Source: Kordiimonas pumila
GTDB taxonomy: Bacteria; Pseudomonadota; Alphaproteobacteria; Sphingomonadales; Kordiimonadaceae
Direction of reading: 5' to 3'
Assembly: GCF_015240255.1 (NCBI RefSeq)
Contig: NZ_CP061205.1
Span: 3,272,501 to 3,336,500, forward strand
Length of the DNA stretch: 64,000 nt
Positions within the stretch are counted from its first letter, which is position 1; the number at the start of each line of letters is the position of its first letter. This document shows positions 52,957-64,000 of this stretch, in pieces. Made by a program: the position numbers and the translations under genes. The notes beneath the pieces are model-generated. The model did not search any database. It saw only the letters and a program-made list of their open reading frames with translations, and was not told where the DNA came from.

Positions 52957-53089
52957 AGAGACGAACATTAACAAGAATTTTTACTTGGGGCACCCCTGAT
53001 CTATGGCAAAGCCGTTATACATAGCCCCCCGTCATACATACCGCTGCCAACGGCGCAGCCACTAATAAACACAATTGAGGAGCCAAACC

Positions 53090-54007
53090 TTGAACAGTTC
53101 TTACCGGCTGGCCACGGCGATACACAACAACAAGCAAGCCGTTTTTGTTGAGCTTGATAATACCCTTTACACCCTTGACCACCTACTACTGGAGGAGGAT
53201 AGAAAGCAGCTAAGCTACAAAAGCCCAGCAGACCTGATGCCATTGCTTGAGAATTGGGGATATTGGTCCATTATTCTGCCAAAACGCATTGAAGCGGCTA
53301 TACCAGACACCGGCACAGCCATAAGTCCCAATGCAGTCACGTTTTGCGCCCCTGTCTTAAGCCCCAAAAAGCTTGTGTGTATCGGCGCTAACTATAAAGA
53401 TCATATCGCGGAAATGAATATCCCGATGCTGCCTGATTATCCCTATTCTTTTTTCAAGCCTGCCACCACAACGCTGCGAGGTTCTGGCGCGAAGGTTTCT
53501 ATTCCGTCCGTTGCAAAAATGGTAGACTGGGAAGCAGAACTTGCTGTTGTGATTGGTAAACACGCCAAAAACGTACGTGCAGCAGATGCCCTTCAGTATA
53601 TTGCAGGATATTCAAACCTGAATGACCTATCCGCACGCGACTGGATCGCAAAACGCCCCCCTGTTGGTATAGACTGGGTACGTCACAAAGGCCACGATGG
53701 TTTCGCCCCAATGGGACCCTATTTTTTACCGGCGAAATTTGTGCCTGACCCGCAAAACATGTCTGTCAAACTGTCTGTAAACGGTGCAGTCAAACAGCTC
53801 TCCAACACTGGCCAGATGGTGTTTGGTGTTGCCGAGATTATTGAGCACCTTTCCAGCATTTTCACCCTTGAGCCCGGCGACATAATCGCAACAGGTACAC
53901 CGGCAGGCGTTGGCCACGGGCGGGATCCGCAAGAGTTCCTCGCAGCGGGTGATATAGTAGAAATGGAAGTAGAGGGGCTTGGCGTACTGATAACCGAAAT
54001 GGCCTAG
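53090..54007 (+). CDS. Fumarylacetoacetate hydrolase family protein
   Basis: This FAH-superfamily enzyme of about 305 residues has VCIGANYKDHIAEM, metal-binding Glu residues in DWEAELAVVIGK, a GYSNLNDLSARDW segment and the terminal GDIIATGTPAGVGHG. Members hydrolyse or decarboxylate 2,4-dioxo acids such as fumarylpyruvate and acylpyruvates. The start is a TTG with GAGGAG seven bases upstream, clearer than the alternative TTG at 53075. It is convergent with the GntR gene and likely belongs to the same catabolic route, acting after ring cleavage. The exact substrate is open. Confidence 0.87.
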   Translation: MNSSYRLATAIHNNKQAVFVELDNTLYTLDHLLLEEDRKQLSYKSPADLMPLLENWGYWSIILPKRIEAAIPDTGTAISPNAVTFCAPVLSPKKLVCIGANYKDHIAEMNIPMLPDYPYSFFKPATTTLRGSGAKVSIPSVAKMVDWEAELAVVIGKHAKNVRAADALQYIAGYSNLNDLSARDWIAKRPPVGIDWVRHKGHDGFAPMGPYFLPAKFVPDPQNMSVKLSVNGAVKQLSNTGQMVFGVAEIIEHLSSIFTLEPGDIIATGTPAGVGHGRDPQEFLAAGDIVEMEVEGLGVLITEMA

Positions 54008-54020
54008 AGTAAAAGAAATT

Positions 54021-54779
54021 CTAGGCTTTTTCGCCCATTGCAGCCGCTGCAGTAAGCGCAAATCGCAGGCTTTCGCGAATTCTTGATGTATCATATTCAG
54101 GCGCAAGGGCTGCCAGCAGCTCTAGCGCTGTGCGGGCAAGATGACGGGCTGCAAGCTCGGCTGCCTTTGAGGCATCACGTGCTGCCATCGCCTCAAAAAT
54201 TTCCCTGTGTTCCACTTCTCCGCGCTGCCACCAGCCCGGGAAATGTGCACCCTTATATGCAGACTGATACCGCTCACTCCGCAGTTCAAGCGCCTCAAGG
54301 TCTGCAACAAAAGCAGCTCCGGCTTCAGCAACCACCAGGCTGTGCAGGCGGCGATGCAGTTCAATCCAGGTTGTGAAAGATGAATGGGATTCGTCGCCCT
54401 CAAGAGCCTCCAGTAACGCGCTCAATTCAGCGACATGCTTATCGGTCATACGCTGGGTGGTTAGCACAACACCAAGGCTTTCCATCATAATACGCTTCAT
54501 ATAAAGCGCCTCAATGTCTTTTGGGTCAAAACCTAGAACACGGTTCCGAAAGTTAGGCTCTGCACCAACAAGGCCACCTTCCTGAAGCATCCGTAAAGCT
54601 TCACGTACAGGTGTGCGGCTAACACCCAGTAATCTAGACAGCTCAACCTGTGACAACACTGTGTTCGGCGCCAGTCGTCCACTCAAAATCAGATCCCTGA
54701 TAATATCATGAATTTCAACGACAGCGCGGCGGCCGTCAGTTTTTTCAAGCGGTGTAATCAGGTTTGAATCAAGTTTCAT
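54021..54779 (-). CDS. GntR-family regulator (FCD type), candidate for the AAGTG regulon
   Basis: This 252-residue regulator has a winged helix (LSRLLGVSRTPVREALRMLQ) and an FCD domain (IELHRRLHSLVVAEAG, HREIFEAMAARDASKAAELAARHL split pieces). It lies among genes that share the AAGTG-N4-CACTT motif, so it is the leading candidate to bind it. Such regulators normally repress until a pathway metabolite binds the helical domain. No copy of the motif was seen in its own upstream gap (54780-54921). Confidence 0.85.
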   Translation of the reverse strand: MKLDSNLITPLEKTDGRRAVVEIHDIIRDLILSGRLAPNTVLSQVELSRLLGVSRTPVREALRMLQEGGLVGAEPNFRNRVLGFDPKDIEALYMKRIMMESLGVVLTTQRMTDKHVAELSALLEALEGDESHSSFTTWIELHRRLHSLVVAEAGAAFVADLEALELRSERYQSAYKGAHFPGWWQRGEVEHREIFEAMAARDASKAAELAARHLARTALELLAALAPEYDTSRIRESLRFALTAAAAMGEKA

Positions 54780-54921: not shown

Positions 54922-55575
54922 CTAAAGTGGGCACACAAAAGGGTATCGCGGTACCAGACCATAGAAATTCAACCTTCCCGACACACTTGAAGCGGCATAG
55001 ATTTCCCTAAAGAAATTTCCATAAAAATGGCGAAAGTACTCAGCTATCATCAGCTTTTTTTTAAGTGTTGAGGGTGGCCGCGCAAACTTTTTACTCATAT
55101 GCCCCATACCTTCTTGGTCACCAAGCTCAAAGCCCCAGCTGTATCCACCTTTAGGATTAGATAGAATTTCCCAGCAATTGTCATCGGCATCCCAGAAATA
55201 GAAGCAATAAGTACCATGCTGCACAACTGGTTTAGTGATTTTTTTCAAATGCCATTTTTCAGCATCGCGTGTAACCACTGCGTAAGCCGCATCCACATCA
55301 GCCTCTGTTTCAACATCAAGACCATTATGGTTCAGGAACGGCATTTCCTGCTTTTCTTTGCCAGTGCTTTTCACAACCACAATAACCTGATCGCCGCCCA
55401 TTCGCGCCCAAAATGAAATTTTAGCCATCTGAACAACTTCAAAACCAAGAAATTCTTCAAAAAAGCGGCGGGTGAACTCAATGTCTCGACACTCTAAGGT
55501 CGCGTGTGAATAGAAATTAAGCGCAAGCGCGGGCTTTGTCGCTGCCGTTGCCGGATTAGATGCTACCGTACCCAT
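54922..55575 (-). CDS. VOC (glyoxalase/extradiol-type) family protein
   Basis: This protein of about 217 residues has the vicinal-oxygen-chelate fold (SHATLECRDIEFTRRFFEEF, then CFYFWDADDNCWEIL). Possible metal ligands are His24, His83 and Glu136. Chain length and ligand positions would allow a metal-dependent lyase, isomerase or dioxygenase, but I cannot name the reaction. GGAG precedes the Met at 55575; the frame is open nine codons further up. It is the last gene of an operon that begins at 56753. Confidence 0.75.
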   Translation of the reverse strand: MGTVASNPATAATKPALALNFYSHATLECRDIEFTRRFFEEFLGFEVVQMAKISFWARMGGDQVIVVVKSTGKEKQEMPFLNHNGLDVETEADVDAAYAVVTRDAEKWHLKKITKPVVQHGTYCFYFWDADDNCWEILSNPKGGYSWGFELGDQEGMGHMSKKFARPPSTLKKKLMIAEYFRHFYGNFFREIYAASSVSGRLNFYGLVPRYPFVCPL

Positions 55576-55653
55576 TTTTGATCTCCCCATCAAAGCTGAC
55601 AAGGCCCCCTTGTCAGGACAATCATTTCTTCAAGCCAAAATACCTTGGCCAAT

Positions 55654-56253
55654 CTAATCAAATAGTTTGGCAGCTGTTTTTGCCACCAGTTCCCCTTGAT
55701 GGCGCGCACCTGCCAGTTCATTCTCGCTTGGCATACGCGACCCATCACCGCCCGCTATTGTTGTCGCGCCGTAAGGGCTACCTCCGGTAATTTCATCAAG
55801 CCTCATCTGCCCCTGAAAGCTATAAGGAAGACCAACAATCGTCATGCCCAAATGTAAAAGGTTCGTAATAATCGAAAACAAGGTGGTTTCCTGGCCGCCG
55901 TGCTGCGTCGCTGTTGAAGTAAAAGCCGCGCCAACTTTGCCGTTCAAAGCACCGCGCTGCCACAAACCACCTGTTTGATCGAGAAAAGCAGCCATCTGCG
56001 ACGCCATCCGGCCATACCGTGTTGGTGAACCCACAACAATACCGTCGTAGCCAGCCAGTTCATCGACCGTAGCAACAGGGTGCTTCTCATTTGAGCGAAA
56101 GCCCGCTTTTTCAGCTACCTCCTTAGGCGCTGTTTCAGCAACACGTTTAATATCGACTATTGCGCCAGCAGAGCGGGCGCCTTCAGCAATAGCTTCAGCA
56201 ACCAATGAGGTGTGACCGTAGCTTGAGTAATAAAGCACCAGTATTTTAGCCAT
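55654..56253 (-). CDS. wrbA: NAD(P)H:quinone oxidoreductase, WrbA type
   Basis: This 199-residue flavodoxin-fold enzyme carries the FMN loop [18 protein letters not shown] and [22 protein letters not shown]-type segments (given in short pieces). It reduces quinones by two electrons, avoiding semiquinone radicals. In the middle of a presumed aromatic-catabolic operon it may reduce benzoquinones formed from polyphenols. It lies between the SRPBCC and VOC genes. Confidence 0.93.
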
Positions 56254-56282: not shown

Positions 56283-56753
56283 TTATACGATGGTGCCGTC
56301 CTGCACCAACTCACGCACACGGTTAAGCGTAGCCGCAACCGCACCCACATATGCACCGCGCATCCCCTCGCCCTTCGCACGCTCTTCTTCAGAGCCCGGC
56401 TTGGTGCCCGGAAAAGTAAGAGCAAATGTAAAGGTAAGCATTAATCCTGCTTCAGATTCGCTGATCGTGTTTTCAATAAAGCCTTCGCTCGCCCCCTTGC
56501 TATCAACCCGTGTGAAGTGCACCTGCACCGGCGCATGAAACGTGATAAATTCCCGAAATGTGTCGCCTGCAAAGGTAATCTCGCGCAGTAAAGTATTATC
56601 TTTACGCTCAAGAACATCACACTGGGTCATTCCCTTCACAAAGGGTTTTGCATCTGTCGCTTTCATTTCCAGTCCGCGCCATACCTGATCCCGCGTTAAT
56701 ACGGGTTGTGCACCAGCCGGGTTAATAGGAATAGTGTATGATAATGCAAACAT
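56283..56753 (-). CDS. SRPBCC/AtaL-like protein (DUF1857)
   Basis: This 156-residue protein matches the AtaL-like branch of the SRPBCC ligand-binding fold (TRDQVWRGLEMKATDAKPFV, REITFAGDTFREFITFHAP). Its activity is unknown; such folds hold hydrophobic ligands in a central cavity. It is the first gene of the operon that continues to wrbA and the VOC gene, and a candidate operator lies 96 bases before its ATG. Confidence 0.8.
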   Translation of the reverse strand: MFALSYTIPINPAGAQPVLTRDQVWRGLEMKATDAKPFVKGMTQCDVLERKDNTLLREITFAGDTFREFITFHAPVQVHFTRVDSKGASEGFIENTISESEAGLMLTFTFALTFPGTKPGSEEERAKGEGMRGAYVGAVAATLNRVRELVQDGTIV

Positions 56754-57025: not shown

Positions 57026-58051
57026 CTATTGTATCATTCCATGCAGCCTGTAAAAGGCCGCAGCTGCTGGGTGTAAATGCCCCAAATCAAGGCCAGGCCA
57101 CTTAAGCATACCCGCCTGTTCTTGTGGCAGGGCATCATACTGACCAAGCTGATTGTGGATACAGCCAAGCAGCGCTCTCACCGTAACAGCATCTGTTTTT
57201 TCCCATGCGGCAAGAGCCTGCGTAAAAGACACCATCTGAATATCGTTCAGCGCTCCTGTGCCGCTTTCTTTTTCTGCGCCCATTACGGATACTCCAACAA
57301 CAAAGGGATTATGCTTATTGATTGCAGATACCGCTTCCCTATCCACTTCAAGCCAATGTGAAGCTTCCATTTCCAAAAGACCGGGCAACAATGAAATATA
57401 GCTATCACCGTTCCTTCGCACAAAATTCCACGTTGTGGCGTCTATCTCGCCTGCCTCAAGGGCCTTTTGTACATTTGGCGGTGCAATATCCACCAACTCC
57501 ACATCGTCTAATATTCCCCACCCGTCACGCAGCAAAGCTTCGCTTAACATTCTCACTGAGCTTGCCCTTGGCGGTACACCTATCTTTTTCCCCTTCAGGT
57601 CATTAGGGTTTTTGATTTCAGAATCAAAAACCAACACACCGAAGCCGATATCATATAAGACCGACACAAACATCAAATCCGCACTAGCTTTAGTATACCC
57701 ATGCCAACCAGGGCCGGTTTTAGTGCGCGCTGGCAAAAAATCTACGGTTGTAACAATTGGCAGGTGGTATTGTTTCTCATGCTCGTCAAGCTCGTTGATA
57801 TCGTTAATACCATCCGGCAAGGGAACAGGAATAACAGTCACATCCTCTAAGGCAGGGCATTTTGCCGCCACGTCGACCAACTGTAAATTCAGCATATGCA
57901 GCATATTGCTTGGCGGGGCAGGTGAATAAATCACAAGTGGTTTTGCATTGTTCATCAGATTTTTATCCTCCGCCCATACCGGCCATACCTGCTGGCATAA
58001 CATCACTAGAGCGCCTGCACCCACCATGCAGAAATGCCGTCTTAAAGCCAT
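57026..58051 (-). CDS. TAXI-type periplasmic solute-binding protein, without permease
   Basis: This protein of about 341 residues has a signal peptide ending near PVWAED and a NMT1/TAXI-like binding fold (NPNDLKGKKIGVPPRASSVRML split as NPNDLKGKKIGVPP and ASSVRML; EAGEIDATTWNFVRRNG). TAXI proteins normally deliver organic acids to a fused TRAP permease, but no DctQM or other permease gene is near. The Met at 58051 opens the signal sequence; the frame is open 23 codons further. It is divergent from the molybdenum enzyme operon and both promoters carry the AAGTG motif. Confidence 0.75.
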   Translation of the reverse strand: MALRRHFCMVGAGALVMLCQQVWPVWAEDKNLMNNAKPLVIYSPAPPSNMLHMLNLQLVDVAAKCPALEDVTVIPVPLPDGINDINELDEHEKQYHLPIVTTVDFLPARTKTGPGWHGYTKASADLMFVSVLYDIGFGVLVFDSEIKNPNDLKGKKIGVPPRASSVRMLSEALLRDGWGILDDVELVDIAPPNVQKALEAGEIDATTWNFVRRNGDSYISLLPGLLEMEASHWLEVDREAVSAINKHNPFVVGVSVMGAEKESGTGALNDIQMVSFTQALAAWEKTDAVTVRALLGCIHNQLGQYDALPQEQAGMLKWPGLDLGHLHPAAAAFYRLHGMIQ

Positions 58052-58155
58052 TACATTACACTTTCTGTCTTTTCTAAAATAAGCCTGCACTATCAAGGGG
58101 CACAGCCAAGGCCGTGCCACACAGCAACATGTATATCATTCTCAATACCATTAAA

Positions 58156-58267: not shown

Positions 58268-58365
58268 ATGGCTTTATAGGCCCGTGCTACGGTTCTAGGC
58301 ACGTCAACGCTATAACAATGACATTGGGGAATGTCTGGCGTGCATGTAGTTAAAGGGGAGTAATA

Positions 58366-61359
58366 ATGAAAAAAAAGCTGCTGAGTCTTATTATCAAGGC
58401 CCTGCCACAGGTCATGAAAGCAGTAAAACTCACCAATACTTCCTTTCGGGAACACGTGCAGCAAAGAGATGCTGTCATTCAGGTACGCTTAAAAGATAAC
58501 TCAGTTGCACACCATTTCATTTTCCAGAATGGCCATATATCGTCTGGGCGCGGGCTTCATGCCAGCCCAGATGTTGATGTCGCCTTTCTCAATGCCTCTG
58601 TCGCCCTGAAGTTTTTGAAACCTGTTCCAGATCAGGCTGATATTATTCATTTCGTTAAAAATTATCAGGTTGAAATGTCAGGCGACGATGCTGCGACCGT
58701 ATGGTTTGCAACCCTTGTTAAAAAAATAAATTCCGGCATGTGGAAACAAGGCACAAAAATGCCCGATGGCAGCACACGTTTTGTAACCAATACAAATGGC
58801 GGCCCTCTATTTGTTTATGTAAAAGACGATAAAATTCTACGCACAACACCTATAGATCTAACAGACGACGACCCCGAAAGCTGGGTTATTAAAGCGCGCG
58901 ATACTCAGTTTTCCCCCAAACGCCAAATGACCGTAAACCCGCATGCCCTGTCGCTTAAATCTGTCGTTTATTCAGAACGTCGCGTTAAATACCCCATGAA
59001 ACGGGTAGACTTTGACCCCAAGGGCAACCGTAACACGCAAAATCGTGGTAAGTCTGGCTATGTCCGTATTTCATGGGACGAAGCTCTCGATATTGTAGCA
59101 GATCAGGTTCGCCGACAAAAAACAACTTATGGCCCCGGCTCCATTGCCGTTACACACGGTGCCCACCACCAAATGGGCAATGTGGGTTACTGGCTTTCCG
59201 CCCTGATGCGCTTCACTAACATTCTCGGCGCCACGCTTATGAAATTTAGCCCCATTAGCTGGGAAGGCTGGTACTGGGGCGCGCAGCATCACTACGGCAA
59301 CAGCTTGCGTCTTGGCCTGCCCGGCCCATACGGCACAATGGAAGACTGCTTAAAAGAATGTGAAATGATCGTTTTCTGGTCAAGCGACCCTGAAGCTACC
59401 GCTGGCCTTTACGGCGGCGGCGAAGGCTCGCAGCGCAGGCAGTGGGCAAAAGACCTGGGTATCAAGTTTGTGCATATCGACCCCCACTATAATTCCACAG
59501 CGCAAGCTTTTGGCGGCAAGTGGTTGCCGGTAAAGCCCACAACAGATTCCGCGCTGGCGCACGCCATTATGTATGTTTGGATAACGGAGAACCTTTACGA
59601 CAAAACCTTCATTGCAAACTGCACAACGGGCTTTGAGGAGTGGAAAGAATATATCCTTGGTCGTGAAGACGGTACACCCAAAACCCCTGCATGGCAGGAA
59701 AGTGAAACAGGCATCCCGGCAAAAGATGTTACCTCTCTTGCGCGCATGTGGGCCAGCAAAAAAACATACCTTTCAGCAGGCGGGCTGGGCACTGGTTTTG
59801 GCGGCGCCTGCAGGGCGGCCACAGGCCAGCAATGGGCACGAAACATGATCCTGCTTATGACCATGCAGGGCTGGGGCAAGCCGGGTGTAAACTTTGGCAA
59901 CCTTCAATGCGGCGCGCCGGTTGACCTTGCTCATTACTTTCCCGGGTATGCAGAGGGCGGTATTTCTGGCGACCTGACACGCACGGCATCATCTATCAAT
60001 AATTATGTTCGCATGCCGCACGTTGTAACTGTTAACCCGGTGGAACAGCGCGTACCCCGCGAATATATCTCAGAAGCCATTAAAACCGGCAAGGCAGAAG
60101 CATACCTCTGGGACGGCATGTCACTGGAGGCGCAGTTCAGAAAAGCACCCTACCCCTCACCCGGCAACGCAGAAATTCACATGATATACCAGTATGGCGG
60201 ATCGTCTTTTGGTACCACCATGAACTCATCTCGCCGGATTGAAATGTACCGTGACGAAAAAGTTGAGTTTGTCGTGAGCCAGTCTATCTGGAACGAGGGC
60301 GAGGCACAGTTCGCCGATATTATATTGCCCGCATGCACGGTTGCAGAGCGCGCCGACATCAGCGAAGTGAGCGGCTGCGCAGCCTTTGGCCACCATAACC
60401 AGACCCAAATGAACCACCGCATGGTGGTAATGCAGCACGAATGCATTAAACCTTTGTGGGAGTCAAAATCAGACTACCGCATTTTCACAGAGGTTTTAGG
60501 TCGCCTTGGTTTTGGCCCCATGTATTCTGAAGGATGCAGCGAGCTTGATTGGTGCAAACGCATTTTTGATTCAACCGATGCTGTTAATTTCACAAGCTGG
60601 TCAAAGTTCCTGAAAAAAGGCTATGTTGTGTTCCCACCACAAGCAGAGGACATGCGGGATAATGTTTATATGCGCTGGATGCACGAGGGGCGCAAAAAAG
60701 ATGTGCCAGAGCCACACCCTTTACCCGGCGACTATTCTGGCGACTTTCTGGACGGCCTGCAAACACAGTCTGGTAAAATAGAGTTTTTACCAAACTCCCT
60801 GAAACGCGGCGACCCGGATAACGAGGAACGCCCCGTTCTGAACCGCTATAAACCAGCATGGGAAGGCCCGGCGAGCGGCGAGCAGGTAAAGGCTTACCCC
60901 TTGCAGCTTGTAACCGGGCACCCGCGTTATAGCTTTCATACCCATATGGACGGTAAAAACAGCCATATTAATGACATTCAGGACCACCGCATAAAGATTG
61001 ATGGCTATGCCTACTGGATCGTCCGTATGAACAGCATAGACGCCGCTGATCGCTGCCTAAACCACCATAGTCTTGTAAAGGTTTATAATGACAGGGCTGG
61101 GGTGATCTGCGCCCTTGATGTGTCCCCCCTTGTGGCACGTGGCACCCTTAAAACCTACGAATCCTCTGCCGAGTTTGACTTCATACAAGATGAAAACGGC
61201 AAGGTGCTGGACCGGGGTGGCTGCATGAATTTGCTAACCCCCTCGCGCACGCAAGCAAAAGGGACAACCGCAATCGCACCAAACTCATGTCTGGTTGAAG
61301 TAGAACAATGGAATAACAGTTGGGAAGTACGTGATGAAAAAATGGCACTTGGTAGTTGA
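58366..61359 (+). CDS. Transhydroxylase-like molybdopterin enzyme with N-terminal SCP2-like domain
   Basis: This 997-residue protein of the DMSO reductase superfamily resembles the large subunit of pyrogallol-phloroglucinol transhydroxylase (AthL) and resorcinol hydroxylase. Signature pieces include EMIVFWSSDPEAT, GYAEGGISGD, FADIILPACT, DGKNSHINDIQDHR and DRGGCMNLLTP. There is no export signal, so it is cytoplasmic. AthL is about 875 residues; the extra 124 residues at the N-terminus (about 30-120) look like an SCP2 lipid-binding domain. Relative to AthL the Mo-ligand Ser (Ser299) and the His pair (His267-268) are kept, but the catalytic Asp174 is Ile298. It overlaps the beta-subunit gene by 26 bases. 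Confidence 0.85.
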   Translation: MKKKLLSLIIKALPQVMKAVKLTNTSFREHVQQRDAVIQVRLKDNSVAHHFIFQNGHISSGRGLHASPDVDVAFLNASVALKFLKPVPDQADIIHFVKNYQVEMSGDDAATVWFATLVKKINSGMWKQGTKMPDGSTRFVTNTNGGPLFVYVKDDKILRTTPIDLTDDDPESWVIKARDTQFSPKRQMTVNPHALSLKSVVYSERRVKYPMKRVDFDPKGNRNTQNRGKSGYVRISWDEALDIVADQVRRQKTTYGPGSIAVTHGAHHQMGNVGYWLSALMRFTNILGATLMKFSPISWEGWYWGAQHHYGNSLRLGLPGPYGTMEDCLKECEMIVFWSSDPEATAGLYGGGEGSQRRQWAKDLGIKFVHIDPHYNSTAQAFGGKWLPVKPTTDSALAHAIMYVWITENLYDKTFIANCTTGFEEWKEYILGREDGTPKTPAWQESETGIPAKDVTSLARMWASKKTYLSAGGLGTGFGGACRAATGQQWARNMILLMTMQGWGKPGVNFGNLQCGAPVDLAHYFPGYAEGGISGDLTRTASSINNYVRMPHVVTVNPVEQRVPREYISEAIKTGKAEAYLWDGMSLEAQFRKAPYPSPGNAEIHMIYQYGGSSFGTTMNSSRRIEMYRDEKVEFVVSQSIWNEGEAQFADIILPACTVAERADISEVSGCAAFGHHNQTQMNHRMVVMQHECIKPLWESKSDYRIFTEVLGRLGFGPMYSEGCSELDWCKRIFDSTDAVNFTSWSKFLKKGYVVFPPQAEDMRDNVYMRWMHEGRKKDVPEPHPLPGDYSGDFLDGLQTQSGKIEFLPNSLKRGDPDNEERPVLNRYKPAWEGPASGEQVKAYPLQLVTGHPRYSFHTHMDGKNSHINDIQDHRIKIDGYAYWIVRMNSIDAADRCLNHHSLVKVYNDRAGVICALDVSPLVARGTLKTYESSAEFDFIQDENGKVLDRGGCMNLLTPSRTQAKGTTAIAPNSCLVEVEQWNNSWEVRDEKMALGS

Positions 61360-62176
61360 TGTTAACCTGTGTACCGGCTGCCAGAACTGCGTGGTTGCAA
61401 CACAAGACGAATATATGAATAACGACTTTAAGGGCTATTCAAAGCCCGGGGCTGCCGGTGTAACGCCGCTTAGCATTGAGCACCGCGTGCGCGGCACAGG
61501 ATCCATGGTTGATGCCCAGCATGTACCAAAAATGTGCAACCACTGCGATGATGCGCCGTGTATTGCAGCAAGTGACGGCGCAATCTACAAACGCCCGGAC
61601 GGCCTTGTGATTATTGACCCAGACAAAGCTGTTGGGCGCAAAAATCTGGTCAGCACGTGCCCCTACGGCATGATCAAATGGAACGACGAACAAAATGTCC
61701 CTCAGGCATGGAACTTTGACGCGCATTTACTGGATTCCGGCTGGAAAGCACCACGTGCTGTGCAAAGTTGCCCGATAGACGCTCTCAAAGCGCTGCATAT
61801 TTCTGATTCTGATATGGAAAAAGCTATAGCTGTAGAAAAGCTGGTAGTTTTACAGCCTGAACTAAACACCAAACCACGGGTATATTATAAAAACCTGTCT
61901 GCTTTCCTCAGCCATTTCATCGGCGGCAATGTCTCGGGCACAAGGGATGGTGAAGCTGAAAACATAGAGGGCGCAACCATAGCGCTTTTACAAAACAGCA
62001 CCCCGCTTGCCGAAACCCTGACAGATGCCTTTGGTGACTTTAAATTTGAAAATCTCCATGATACTTCAACAGGCTATAGCATCAGCATCAACCACCCTGA
62101 TTACACCTCACAAATTATAGAAGTCAGTGGTATTTTAGCGGAAAGTAAGGTGCTTGACATCTCCCTGAGCCGATAG
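61334..62176 (+). CDS. Transhydroxylase-like iron-sulfur subunit with C-terminal Ig-like domain
   Basis: This subunit of about 280 residues matches AthB. N-terminal ferredoxin-type motifs carry eight Cys (14, 17, 20, 69, 72, 77, 110, 147), enough for two [4Fe-4S] clusters. In AthB there are twelve and three clusters. The four missing positions (Thr24, Trp127, Asp130, Ala143) are exactly the expected ligands of one cluster. The C-terminal part (about 195-280, ATIALLQNSTPLAETLTDAF, FGDFKFENLHD) is a CnaB-like beta-sandwich, also found in AthB. An alternative GTG start lies one codon earlier. Electron transfer in or out of the Mo site is its expected job. Confidence 0.85.
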   Translation: MKKWHLVVDVNLCTGCQNCVVATQDEYMNNDFKGYSKPGAAGVTPLSIEHRVRGTGSMVDAQHVPKMCNHCDDAPCIAASDGAIYKRPDGLVIIDPDKAVGRKNLVSTCPYGMIKWNDEQNVPQAWNFDAHLLDSGWKAPRAVQSCPIDALKALHISDSDMEKAIAVEKLVVLQPELNTKPRVYYKNLSAFLSHFIGGNVSGTRDGEAENIEGATIALLQNSTPLAETLTDAFGDFKFENLHDTSTGYSISINHPDYTSQIIEVSGILAESKVLDISLSR

Positions 62177-62246: not shown

Positions 62247-63125
62247 TTACATGCAGTTCGCACGGTACCAGTCATTTATTTCGCCGCCCGTGGTTTGCCA
62301 AATATCATCATGCCCCGCAATATAGGCAAGAGCTGCTTTAAAGTGCTTCATCCTAAAAGGGTGGCCTGTGATAAACGGATGCAATGATATGGACATCACC
62401 CGTGGTAGCTCAAGCGCTTCTTCGTACAGCACATCAAACTGGTCTTTAATCATTTGGCCAAAAACCTCTGCCGATGTACCCTTACCCATAATTGTAGGCA
62501 CGTCATTAAGCTCAAGCGTATATGGCATTGTCAGCAAGGAACCCTTTTCAACTTTCATTGGTACAGGCAGTTCATCATGGGCATAGTTTGAAACATATTC
62601 GATACCCGCTTCAGCGAGAAAATCAGGCGTTTTAAAGCTTTCTGCCAAGCACATGCCCAGCCAGCCCTTTGGCCGTTTACCTGTTGCTTTTTCTACAATA
62701 GCAACATTTTTGCTTATGAATGCACGTTCCTCATCTTCCGTCATCACCGTCATGATGCTGGTGTTGTTATCACCCTGCATGCCCCATTCCCAATCCCGGG
62801 CATTGCCTTCCTCGATAATCTGCGGATATTCGCGGCACACATCACTGTTCAAATTCACCGTTCCTCTAAAACCATATTCATCCATAGCTTTCATAATGCG
62901 CCATAAGCCAACACGGTTGCCGTAATCTCGCCAGCCATGGTTCAAAATATCGGGACTATACTGCATTGTCATCGGGTATACAGCATGCGCAAGCGACGTA
63001 GACCCAAAGGGCACATGCTCAATATTCACATAAATCATTACCGCCAAACGCTTCCCGCCGGGAAACTTGACAGGCTTTCTATTTATGATTGGTTCGAAAT
63101 CGTATCTGGGTGACTGAGTAGACAT
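62247..63125 (-). CDS. Polysaccharide deacetylase-family hydrolase (PuuE-like)
   Basis: This 292-residue NodB-fold protein (PYTLELNDVP, ISLHPFITGHPFRMKHFKAAL) belongs to the cytoplasmic PuuE/PgdA-like branch, which includes allantoinase-like and cyclic imide hydrolases. RGTVNLNSDVCREYP and WEWGMQGDNN are near the metal site. It has no signal peptide. Hydrolysis of an amide or imide bond is a guess. It lies among the AAGTG-motif genes and has a copy 72 bases before its start. Confidence 0.82.
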   Translation of the reverse strand: MSTQSPRYDFEPIINRKPVKFPGGKRLAVMIYVNIEHVPFGSTSLAHAVYPMTMQYSPDILNHGWRDYGNRVGLWRIMKAMDEYGFRGTVNLNSDVCREYPQIIEEGNARDWEWGMQGDNNTSIMTVMTEDEERAFISKNVAIVEKATGKRPKGWLGMCLAESFKTPDFLAEAGIEYVSNYAHDELPVPMKVEKGSLLTMPYTLELNDVPTIMGKGTSAEVFGQMIKDQFDVLYEEALELPRVMSISLHPFITGHPFRMKHFKAALAYIAGHDDIWQTTGGEINDWYRANCM

Positions 63126-63557: not shown

Positions 63558-64000
63558 TTGATTAACAAAAAACGTACTCAGCCAGTACGCTTATCCAGCA
63601 GGGCCTTTATGCTCGCTGGGTGCAGTGTTGTTGGCCTCCTCGGCGCAAGCAGCCTTGCCTATGCCGAGCAAACTGCCGCTGACGAAACCACCGTATCAGA
63701 TGCGGGTACAGCGTCAAAAGGCACTTATGTTATTGAAGATATTGTTGTAACGGCGCAAAAGAGAAGCGAAAGCCTGCAAAAAACACCCGCGGCCGTTACA
63801 GCCTATAGCGGCATTTCCCTTGTAGAAAAGGGGGTAACAGACCTGCGAGCCGCACAAACCATTATTCCTAACGCCCGCTTGCAGCAAGAGGGGGCCACCA
63901 CACAGGCCTTTCTGCGCGGTGTAGGCTCGAACCTTGATTATAGTAACATCGAACCCACCATCGCTTTTAACTTTAACGGCGTGTTTATCCCGCGCGAAGG
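63558..64000 (+). CDS. TonB-dependent receptor, N-terminal part (cut by the window edge)
   Basis: The frame starts with TTG at 63558, with GGAGGG just before it, and runs open to the window end (about 147 codons). It begins MINKKRTQPVRLSSRAFMLA, a signal peptide ending near LAYAEQ, then a TonB box DIVVTAQKR and plug segments (LRAAQTIIPNARLQQEGA, FLRGVGSNLDYSNIEP). The pattern is that of the large receptors of sphingomonad-like bacteria that import aromatic or other complex organics. It is probably the outer-membrane gate for the substrate of the neighbouring molybdenum enzyme cluster. The barrel lies outside the window. Confidence 0.85.
   Translation, partial: MINKKRTQPVRLSSRAFMLAGCSVVGLLGASSLAYAEQTAADETTVSDAGTASKGTYVIEDIVVTAQKRSESLQKTPAAVTAYSGISLVEKGVTDLRAAQTIIPNARLQQEGATTQAFLRGVGSNLDYSNIEPTIAFNFNGVFIPRE

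Follow-up and report, generated by a model that had tools for sequence, protein, structure and literature searches.

A gene close to the end of a 64,000-nucleotide stretch of Kordiimonas pumila DNA (assembly GCF_015240255.1, contig NZ_CP061205.1, positions 3,272,501 to 3,336,500 of the forward strand; hereafter, the window) encodes an AthL-type molybdenum (Mo) enzyme large subunit in which an SCP2-like domain is fused to the N-terminus of the catalytic core. Here, we describe a computational analysis of this protein and its relatives, which follows up an earlier note made from the sequence alone. Computation establishes that this gene and the one adjoining it encode a molybdenum-bis(molybdopterin guanine dinucleotide) (Mo-bisMGD)/iron-sulfur (Fe-S) enzyme of the AthL family, and that the predicted fold of the N-terminal extension is that of an SCP2 domain. 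The fusion is real and is common to one widespread clade rather than unique to the window genome. By analogy with other SCP2 proteins we favour presentation of the substrate by the added domain as a plausible role.

The 997-amino-acid (aa) open reading frame (ORF) starts at an ATG preceded, a few bases upstream, by AAAGGGGAG, a good candidate ribosome-binding site. Residues 138-984 align with residues 6-869 of AthL (Protein Data Bank (PDB) entry 4v4c, 875 residues; phmmer, E 1.7e-255); the protein is thus 122 residues longer than the 4v4c chain (about 124 longer than AthL in the earlier note), with an extra N-terminal part of about 130 residues that is conserved in relatives. Three Pfam families exceed their cut-offs within the core: AhtL-like_1st (PF21423, residues 146-199, 83.3 bits against a cut-off of 27), Molybdopterin (PF00384, 206-711) and Molydop_binding (PF01568, 846-963). 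The AthL-type core named in that note is also borne out by an AlphaFold2 model of the full-length protein based on 45 homologues (predicted local distance difference test (pLDDT) 81.3, predicted template modelling score 0.84), whose best PDB match by Foldseek is 4v4c (E 7e-89, template modelling (TM) score 0.88 on the target, 46% identity). In several stretches, one of them at the position of AthL His144 (267-273), pLDDT falls below 50, so that the pocket geometry of the model is not to be trusted. The large subunit matches only itself in the whole genome. Its small-subunit partner, a [4Fe-4S] dicluster protein, matches Fer4_11 (1.8e-17) and has a C-terminal CarboxypepD_reg stretch below threshold. 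The window pair therefore shows the features of the AthL/RhL (RhL/PgtL) group, namely PF21423 with a MopB core, serine at the Mo-ligand position and an adjoining Fe-S small-subunit gene. The enzyme is probably cytoplasmic.

The SCP2 identity of the extension, which the earlier note had read from a pattern of residues, is supported by both structure prediction and profile comparison. An AlphaFold2 model of the domain, calculated on an alignment of 48 homologous domains (pLDDT 81.7), has the order helix-helix-four strands-two helices-strand-helix (helices 2-23 and 25-32; strands 36-42, 48-54, 57-62 and 70-74; helices 77-83 and 90-98; strand 102-106; helix 108-127). The segment described in the note as a DVDVAF-type strand followed by a helix, VEMSGDDAATVWF, corresponds to residues 102-114 and is modelled as a strand (102-106), a turn and a helix running from residue 108 to 123 or 127 in two models. 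The 42 best PDB matches of the domain model (Foldseek E 4e-6 to 5e-3; moderate TM scores of 0.36-0.61 on the query) consist of 29 SCP2-type chains, including UbiJ-SCP2, AF1534, TT1886, insect, yeast, rabbit and human SCP2 and the like, and 13 alkylsulfatase/YjcS chains, which we take to carry a C-terminal SCP2-like domain. The top match is UbiJ-SCP2 (6h6p, E 4.1e-6), and ranks 43-50 are methyltransferases and acetyltransferases with E values of 0.03 and worse. When the 48 homologous domains were compared by hhalign with 22 SCP2 domains (22 of the 30 PF02036-fetched loci at hand, 29 plus L092), residues 17-115 aligned with positions 1-96 of the SCP2 profile at 94.3%. Under the same settings 30 control families, which are clusters of neighbour ORFs and perhaps include some spurious frames, reached at most 0.8%, and a reversed alignment 0.6%. 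Because the fold search and the profile control agree, a chance resemblance to SCP2 is very unlikely.

Recognition of the domain by profile depended on its relatives: the single window sequence gave no SCP2 match in Pfam or NCBIfam. At E 0.1, PF02036 found three places in the whole genome, all elsewhere and none at the window domain, and a profile search of PDB sequences with the domain returned no SCP2 chain, only a chance match at E 0.95. A loose match to Phage_tube (E 0.1) was likewise dropped as chance. Among the 48 aligned domains PF02036 matches 11 at E <=1 (best, 0.0017), and it is the best match (E 0.011-0.12) for four single proteins, namely a Salipiger copy, two from the order to which the window belongs and one that stands alone in Pseudomonas, with bit scores of 13.2-16.5 that lie below the gathering score of 21.3. 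The domain thus falls short of the Pfam gathering score and agrees with SCP2 in fold and in profile similarity over its length. That the N-terminal region is some other small alpha/beta fold is very improbable, for although the empty single-sequence and PDB-sequence searches, the moderate TM scores and a PcrA_UvrD_tudor match (E 0.0018, one of 48) about equal to the best SCP2 match would fit such a fold, each of the 11 other Pfam families found matches a single homologue, and the AlphaFold2 model, hhalign, Foldseek and the profile controls agree on SCP2 from different directions. The nearest single-domain relative met is the stand-alone Pseudomonas protein WP_003096629 (hypothetical, 130 aa; L088:7968-8360), which resembles the window domain (profile E 4.5e-22; SCP2 below threshold in Pfam) but is not fused, and adjoins rubredoxin/alkT and HU genes.

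A scan of genome contigs confirmed at least 550 relatives among at least 597 stretches, and in all 80 loci kept the extension and the core share one reading frame (in L047, for profile positions 61-135 only). Genome draws searched with PF21423 gave four places in 4 of 196 genomes of the window's order (window included), all fused; 28 places in 22 of 249 genomes of the Paraburkholderia family, all fused; three places in 3 of 249 genomes of the Mesorhizobium order, all fused; and 19 places, 17 of them fused, in 14 of 297 genomes from the family of a Rhodocyclaceae bacterium. In the phylum of a deltaproteobacterial metagenome-assembled genome (MAG), 25 places in 10 of 297 genomes comprised five fused genes, 17 unfused cores (one at a contig end) and three without a usable core frame. 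The last four draws include seed genomes picked as carriers (G573, G572, G585, G583, G577). A draw of 398 genomes from the window's phylum yielded one place over the cut-off, the window itself, and one weak, short place below it. The fusion is therefore the rule in the proteobacterial samples and not in the deltaproteobacterial phylum; the earlier note's description of it as unusual holds against AthL itself, but in the sampled proteobacterial genomes it is the usual architecture. Eighteen genomes reached from the studied loci contain 30 places (24 fused, five unfused, one at a contig end). Ten plasmid records were matched, eight in the AthL-type family at 55-59% identity and two resembling trimethylamine N-oxide reductase at 27%. 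Among the open-access literature matches listed, covered by title and start of abstract and with subscription papers mostly outside, we found no description of an SCP2-Mo enzyme fusion.

Some copies depart from the simple arrangement. In Sinorhizobium terangae (NZ_CP121660.1, 792374-796809) a gap of about 1.5 kb separates the domain match from the core match on one strand, and this copy looks split or interrupted. A further Mo-core frame that lacks SCP2 lies directly downstream of a fused gene pair (L085:8334-10526), and one contig (G572, C85) carries two AthL-type genes some 14 kb from each other, one unfused (L155, 855 aa) and one fused (L126, 993 aa).

In a maximum-likelihood tree built from 68 cores, 50 of them fused and 18 unfused (a quick search with Shimodaira-Hasegawa-like approximate likelihood ratio test (SH-aLRT) support only and no bootstrap), all fused cores, of which L008 and L161 are one locus, lie on one side of a single branch with SH-aLRT 100. 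One gain, or one loss in the other direction, thus suffices to explain their distribution, and the homologue survey confirms the N-terminal fusion as a shared feature. The nearest unfused group is AthL with its short relatives L155, L156 and L157, and the node joining it to the fused clade has support 85. The window sequence clusters with one MAG each of Sphingobium and Rhodospirillaceae and, at the next level, with sequences from Xenophilus, Salipiger and Burkholderiaceae (11 rows, support 97). No separate SCP2 gene was found beside the unfused AthL relatives in five loci (L155-L159). The clade is a large set of uncharacterised genes from Burkholderia, Paraburkholderia, Pseudomonas, rhizobia, sphingomonads and deltaproteobacterial lineages.

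The fused cores also differ from AthL in the active site. For AthL we assume the residue numbers and roles of His144, Tyr152, Arg153, Asp174, Ser175, Trp176, Tyr404 and Tyr560, with Ser175 presumably the Mo ligand and Arg153 and Asp174 presumably important in the pocket. The residues at the Ser175, His144 and Trp176 positions are unchanged throughout the 67 other rows (50 fused, 17 unfused), and that at Tyr404 in 50 of 50 fused rows. The Arg153 position is aromatic in every fused core (Tyr 36, Trp 14) and basic in AthL and all 17 other unfused cores (Arg 5, Lys 5, His 7). At the Asp174 position, 39 of the 50 fused rows have Asp and 11 have Ile, the latter being the 11 rows of the window's subclade. 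The window protein has Trp276 and Ile297 in place of these two transhydroxylase pocket residues, and we therefore file it with the family and not as a transhydroxylase. Since the changes at the two positions represent one or few tree events each, the alignment only suggests that the fused domain is tied to a less polar pocket. Coupling between the two changes was considered and rejected on the cross-count (Tyr/Asp 30, Trp/Ile 5, Trp/Asp 5, Tyr/Ile 5, of 45). Three loci (L189, L190, L191) contain pairs of distant AthL-like large subunits without SCP2 (871-879 and 906-907 aa), which have His at the Arg153 position and Thr or Ala at that of Tyr152.

Neighbouring genes were counted within 9 kb where the contig allowed, with one core per locus; some loci are cut by contig ends, and both the Asp-type and the Ile-type set contain near-duplicates; L008/L161 (one locus), L034/L089 (one species) and L061/L090 (one species) are such pairs. 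Around 70 fused loci of the Asp type there are fumarylacetoacetate (FAA) hydrolases in 43, two-domain extradiol-type vicinal oxygen chelate (VOC) proteins in 39, acyl-coenzyme A (CoA) synthetases of PRK07529 type, over its cut-off, in 34, and short-chain dehydrogenases/reductases (SDRs) in nine. The 19 Ile-type loci, window included, have SDRs in 12, KstD-like flavoproteins in eight, FAA hydrolases in six, VOC proteins in two and CoA ligases in none. In a clustering of neighbours over 83 loci (large-subunit cluster, 79 of these; L001, L002, L003, L005 and L006, which are window repeats or a G030 fragment, and L004, L007 and L088 left out), an OmpW-like protein occurs in 17 loci; together with a FadL/TodX protein this suggests hydrophobic uptake. 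Full DUF1302/DUF1329/BNR/MMPL sets, with families confirmed on members, lie near the fused gene in L017, L027, L047 and L084, and partial sets in L024, L055, L072, L074 and L082. In L240 (2403-18019), from a genome drawn from the family of a Rhodocyclaceae bacterium, two fused large subunits flank such a set together with an enoyl-CoA hydratase and a GntR gene. In Castellaniella, growth on monoterpenes is tied to genes of these families (PMC6394551). About 12 kb from the Salipiger copy lies a gene annotated as a salicylyl-CoA ligase; a salicylyl-CoA pathway was set aside as the principal interpretation, as it rests on this one annotated gene.

Lipid binding is typical of SCP2 domains. That of UbiJ is reported to bind hydrophobic ubiquinone intermediates (PMC6747719; PMC9499169), UbiT is proposed to bind such intermediates for the O2-independent hydroxylases UbiU-UbiV, and a ubiT-ubiU fusion occurs in Zymomonas (both PMC6747719). 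On this analogy we propose that the domain of the window protein may hold the greasy part of a lipophilic ring substrate for O2-independent hydroxylation of the ring at the Mo centre, a tentative reading to which we give somewhat less than an even chance. The analogy, the pocket change and the neighbouring genes all point the same way. A phenol-type or other lipophilic ring compound would be taken up through FadL/OmpW or TonB-type receptors; the SCP2 domain would hold its lipophilic part and offer the ring to the Mo site, which would add a hydroxyl derived from water or from a co-substrate. For many relatives, the extradiol-type dioxygenase and FAA hydrolase might then act on the product, and a CoA ligase is often encoded nearby. 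The window's subclade, in which Asp is replaced by Ile in the pocket and SDRs and KstD-like proteins are neighbours, may have a different substrate or reaction. The two characterised enzymes of the group known to us act on small polyphenols, pyrogallol and resorcinol (PMC10100899). A broader proposal, possible but distinctly doubtful, is that the fused genes form a large clade, chiefly proteobacterial, of Mo hydroxylases that are tethered to SCP2, work without O2 and act on lipid-like ring compounds, in which the fusion and the Arg/Lys/His-to-Tyr/Trp change would be a single switch from polar polyphenols to lipophilic substrates, and in which the window's subclade, having lost the pocket Asp, would act outside phenol transhydroxylation, for example on rings that are alicyclic or steroid/terpenoid-like, in concert with SDR and KstD-like enzymes. 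An SCP2 domain in the catalytic subunit provides a testable reason to seek lipophilic substrates for Mo enzymes of the AthL group.

Four observations weigh against the favoured reading, in which the domain holds a lipophilic ring substrate for the Mo site. PF02036 does not match the window domain in Pfam even at loose thresholds; the Arg-to-aromatic change is one tree event, so that its link to the fusion amounts to one data point; the gene next to the window large subunit encodes a periplasmic solute-binding protein, which fits a soluble substrate equally well; and the lack of CoA ligases and the scarcity of two-domain VOC proteins around the Ile-type loci make the ring-cleavage context weaker in the window's own subclade.

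Other roles for the domain may be weighed against the same data. SCP2 proteins bind acyl-CoAs, and the domain might dock a CoA thioester, with a neighbouring ligase making an aryl- or acyl-CoA and the Mo site acting on the CoA-bound ring. The PRK07529-type synthetases and the ligase near the Salipiger copy would suit this role, but a ligase accompanies only about half of the Asp-type loci and none of the Ile-type loci, where the domain is nevertheless present, and we regard CoA docking as unlikely. Nor do we think it likely that the domain has lost substrate binding and serves as a structural assembly or membrane-contact module. Its sequence changes far more rapidly than that of the core (mean pairwise identity is 40% for the domain and 64% for the core, with the domain the lower in all 990 pairs), and helix 1 is somewhat amphipathic, its hydrophobic moment exceeding the shuffle mean in 37 of 47 rows; this moment is weak, however (mean z 0.55), rapid change would also be expected of a substrate-reading domain, Gly56, Lys98, Gly106 and Trp113 are invariant across the 48 aligned domains, and among the 68 cores none inside the fused clade is unfused. 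Finally, the fused clade could be the resorcinol-hydroxylase (RhL) branch, acting on small soluble phenols and carrying SCP2 as a long-known but unnoted part. Apart from AthL, the characterised member of the Ser-ligand group is RhL of Azoarcus anaerobius (PMC10100899), and the Rhodocyclaceae-bacterium family is rich in fused genes (17 of 19 places), but inspection by eye of four loci (L238-L241) revealed no cluster of hydroxyhydroquinone-dehydrogenase type, and the fused-gene neighbours point to hydrophobic uptake and CoA ligation; we judge this reading improbable. RhL itself was not identified in the survey of 297 genomes of that family.

The features of the window locus are collected in the table. 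Beyond the window, the TonB receptor gene is followed by two SDR genes (L192), as in the Sphingobium MAG. Between 33.7 and 52.6 kb, Pfam searches of another 13 window genes identified, among other families, pyrroloquinoline quinone (PQQ) dehydrogenases, cytochrome bd, glycerate kinase, pirin and isochorismatase, without a clear link to the Mo enzyme. The segment 33689-40342 contains three genes of the PQQ-dependent alcohol dehydrogenase type, two of which also encode cytochrome c domains.

Table. Features of the AthL-type locus and adjoining genes, in window coordinates.
Feature	Position	Strand	Basis
FAA hydrolase family protein	53075..54007	+	Pfam/NCBIfam
GntR/FCD regulator	54021..54779	-	Pfam/NCBIfam
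VOC/glyoxalase-fold protein, PF00903 just over cut-off	54922..55602	-	Pfam
WrbA-type NAD(P)H:quinone oxidoreductase, above NCBIfam cut-off	55654..56253	-	NCBIfam
AtaL family (PF08982) protein	56283..56753	-	Pfam
NMT1/TAXI-type solute-binding protein, divergently transcribed	57026..58120	-	Pfam/NCBIfam
Likely ribosome-binding site AAAGGGGAG, before ATG 58366	58352..58360	+	read from sequence
AthL-type Mo-bisMGD enzyme large subunit with N-terminal SCP2-like domain, 997 aa	58366..61359	+	ORF, Pfam, phmmer, models
SCP2-like domain, residues 1-127	58366..58746	+	AlphaFold2 model, Foldseek, hhalign
Catalytic core, residues 138-984, aligned to AthL 4v4c	58777..61317	+	Pfam, phmmer, Foldseek
Trp276, AthL Arg153 position	59191..59193	+	core alignment
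Ile297, AthL Asp174 position	59254..59256	+	core alignment
Ser298, AthL Ser175 position	59257..59259	+	core alignment
Small subunit, [4Fe-4S] dicluster protein; overlaps end of large-subunit gene	61331..62176	+	Pfam/NCBIfam
Polysaccharide deacetylase/PuuE-like protein, between Mo genes and TonB receptor	62247..63125	-	Pfam/NCBIfam
TonB-dependent receptor gene start, runs past window (729 aa in L192)	63558..64000	+	ORF and L192

Of the closest known systems, AthL/AthS (PgtLS), the pyrogallol-phloroglucinol transhydroxylase of Pelobacter acidigallici (4v4c), shares with the window pair the core fold and sequence over residues 138-984, the Ser ligand position, the His144, Tyr152, Trp176 and Tyr404 positions and the adjoining Fe-S small-subunit gene. 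AthL lacks the SCP2 domain, and the window protein differs from it in having Trp at Arg153, Ile at Asp174 and Phe at Tyr560. The alkylsulfatases SdsA1 and Pisa1 (2cfu and 2yhe among the Foldseek matches) are likewise proteins in which a catalytic domain is joined to an SCP2-like one and which act on hydrophobic substrates; in these enzymes, we assume, a metallo-beta-lactamase-type sulfatase core is followed by a C-terminal SCP2-like domain, whereas that of the window protein is N-terminal. RhLS, the resorcinol hydroxylase of Azoarcus anaerobius, belongs to the same RhL/PgtL group, in which Ser is the Mo ligand, and carries out hydroxylation (PMC10100899). UbiJ and UbiT share the SCP2 fold and work, as reported for UbiJ and proposed for UbiT, with phenol-ring hydroxylases on lipophilic intermediates (PMC6747719). 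Unlike the window domain, they are separate proteins whose partners are flavin or U32 Fe-S hydroxylases and not Mo enzymes, and they serve biosynthesis rather than catabolism; in the fused clade, the pairing of SCP2 with a hydroxylase that is proposed for ubiquinone synthesis would extend to Mo chemistry and probably also to catabolism.

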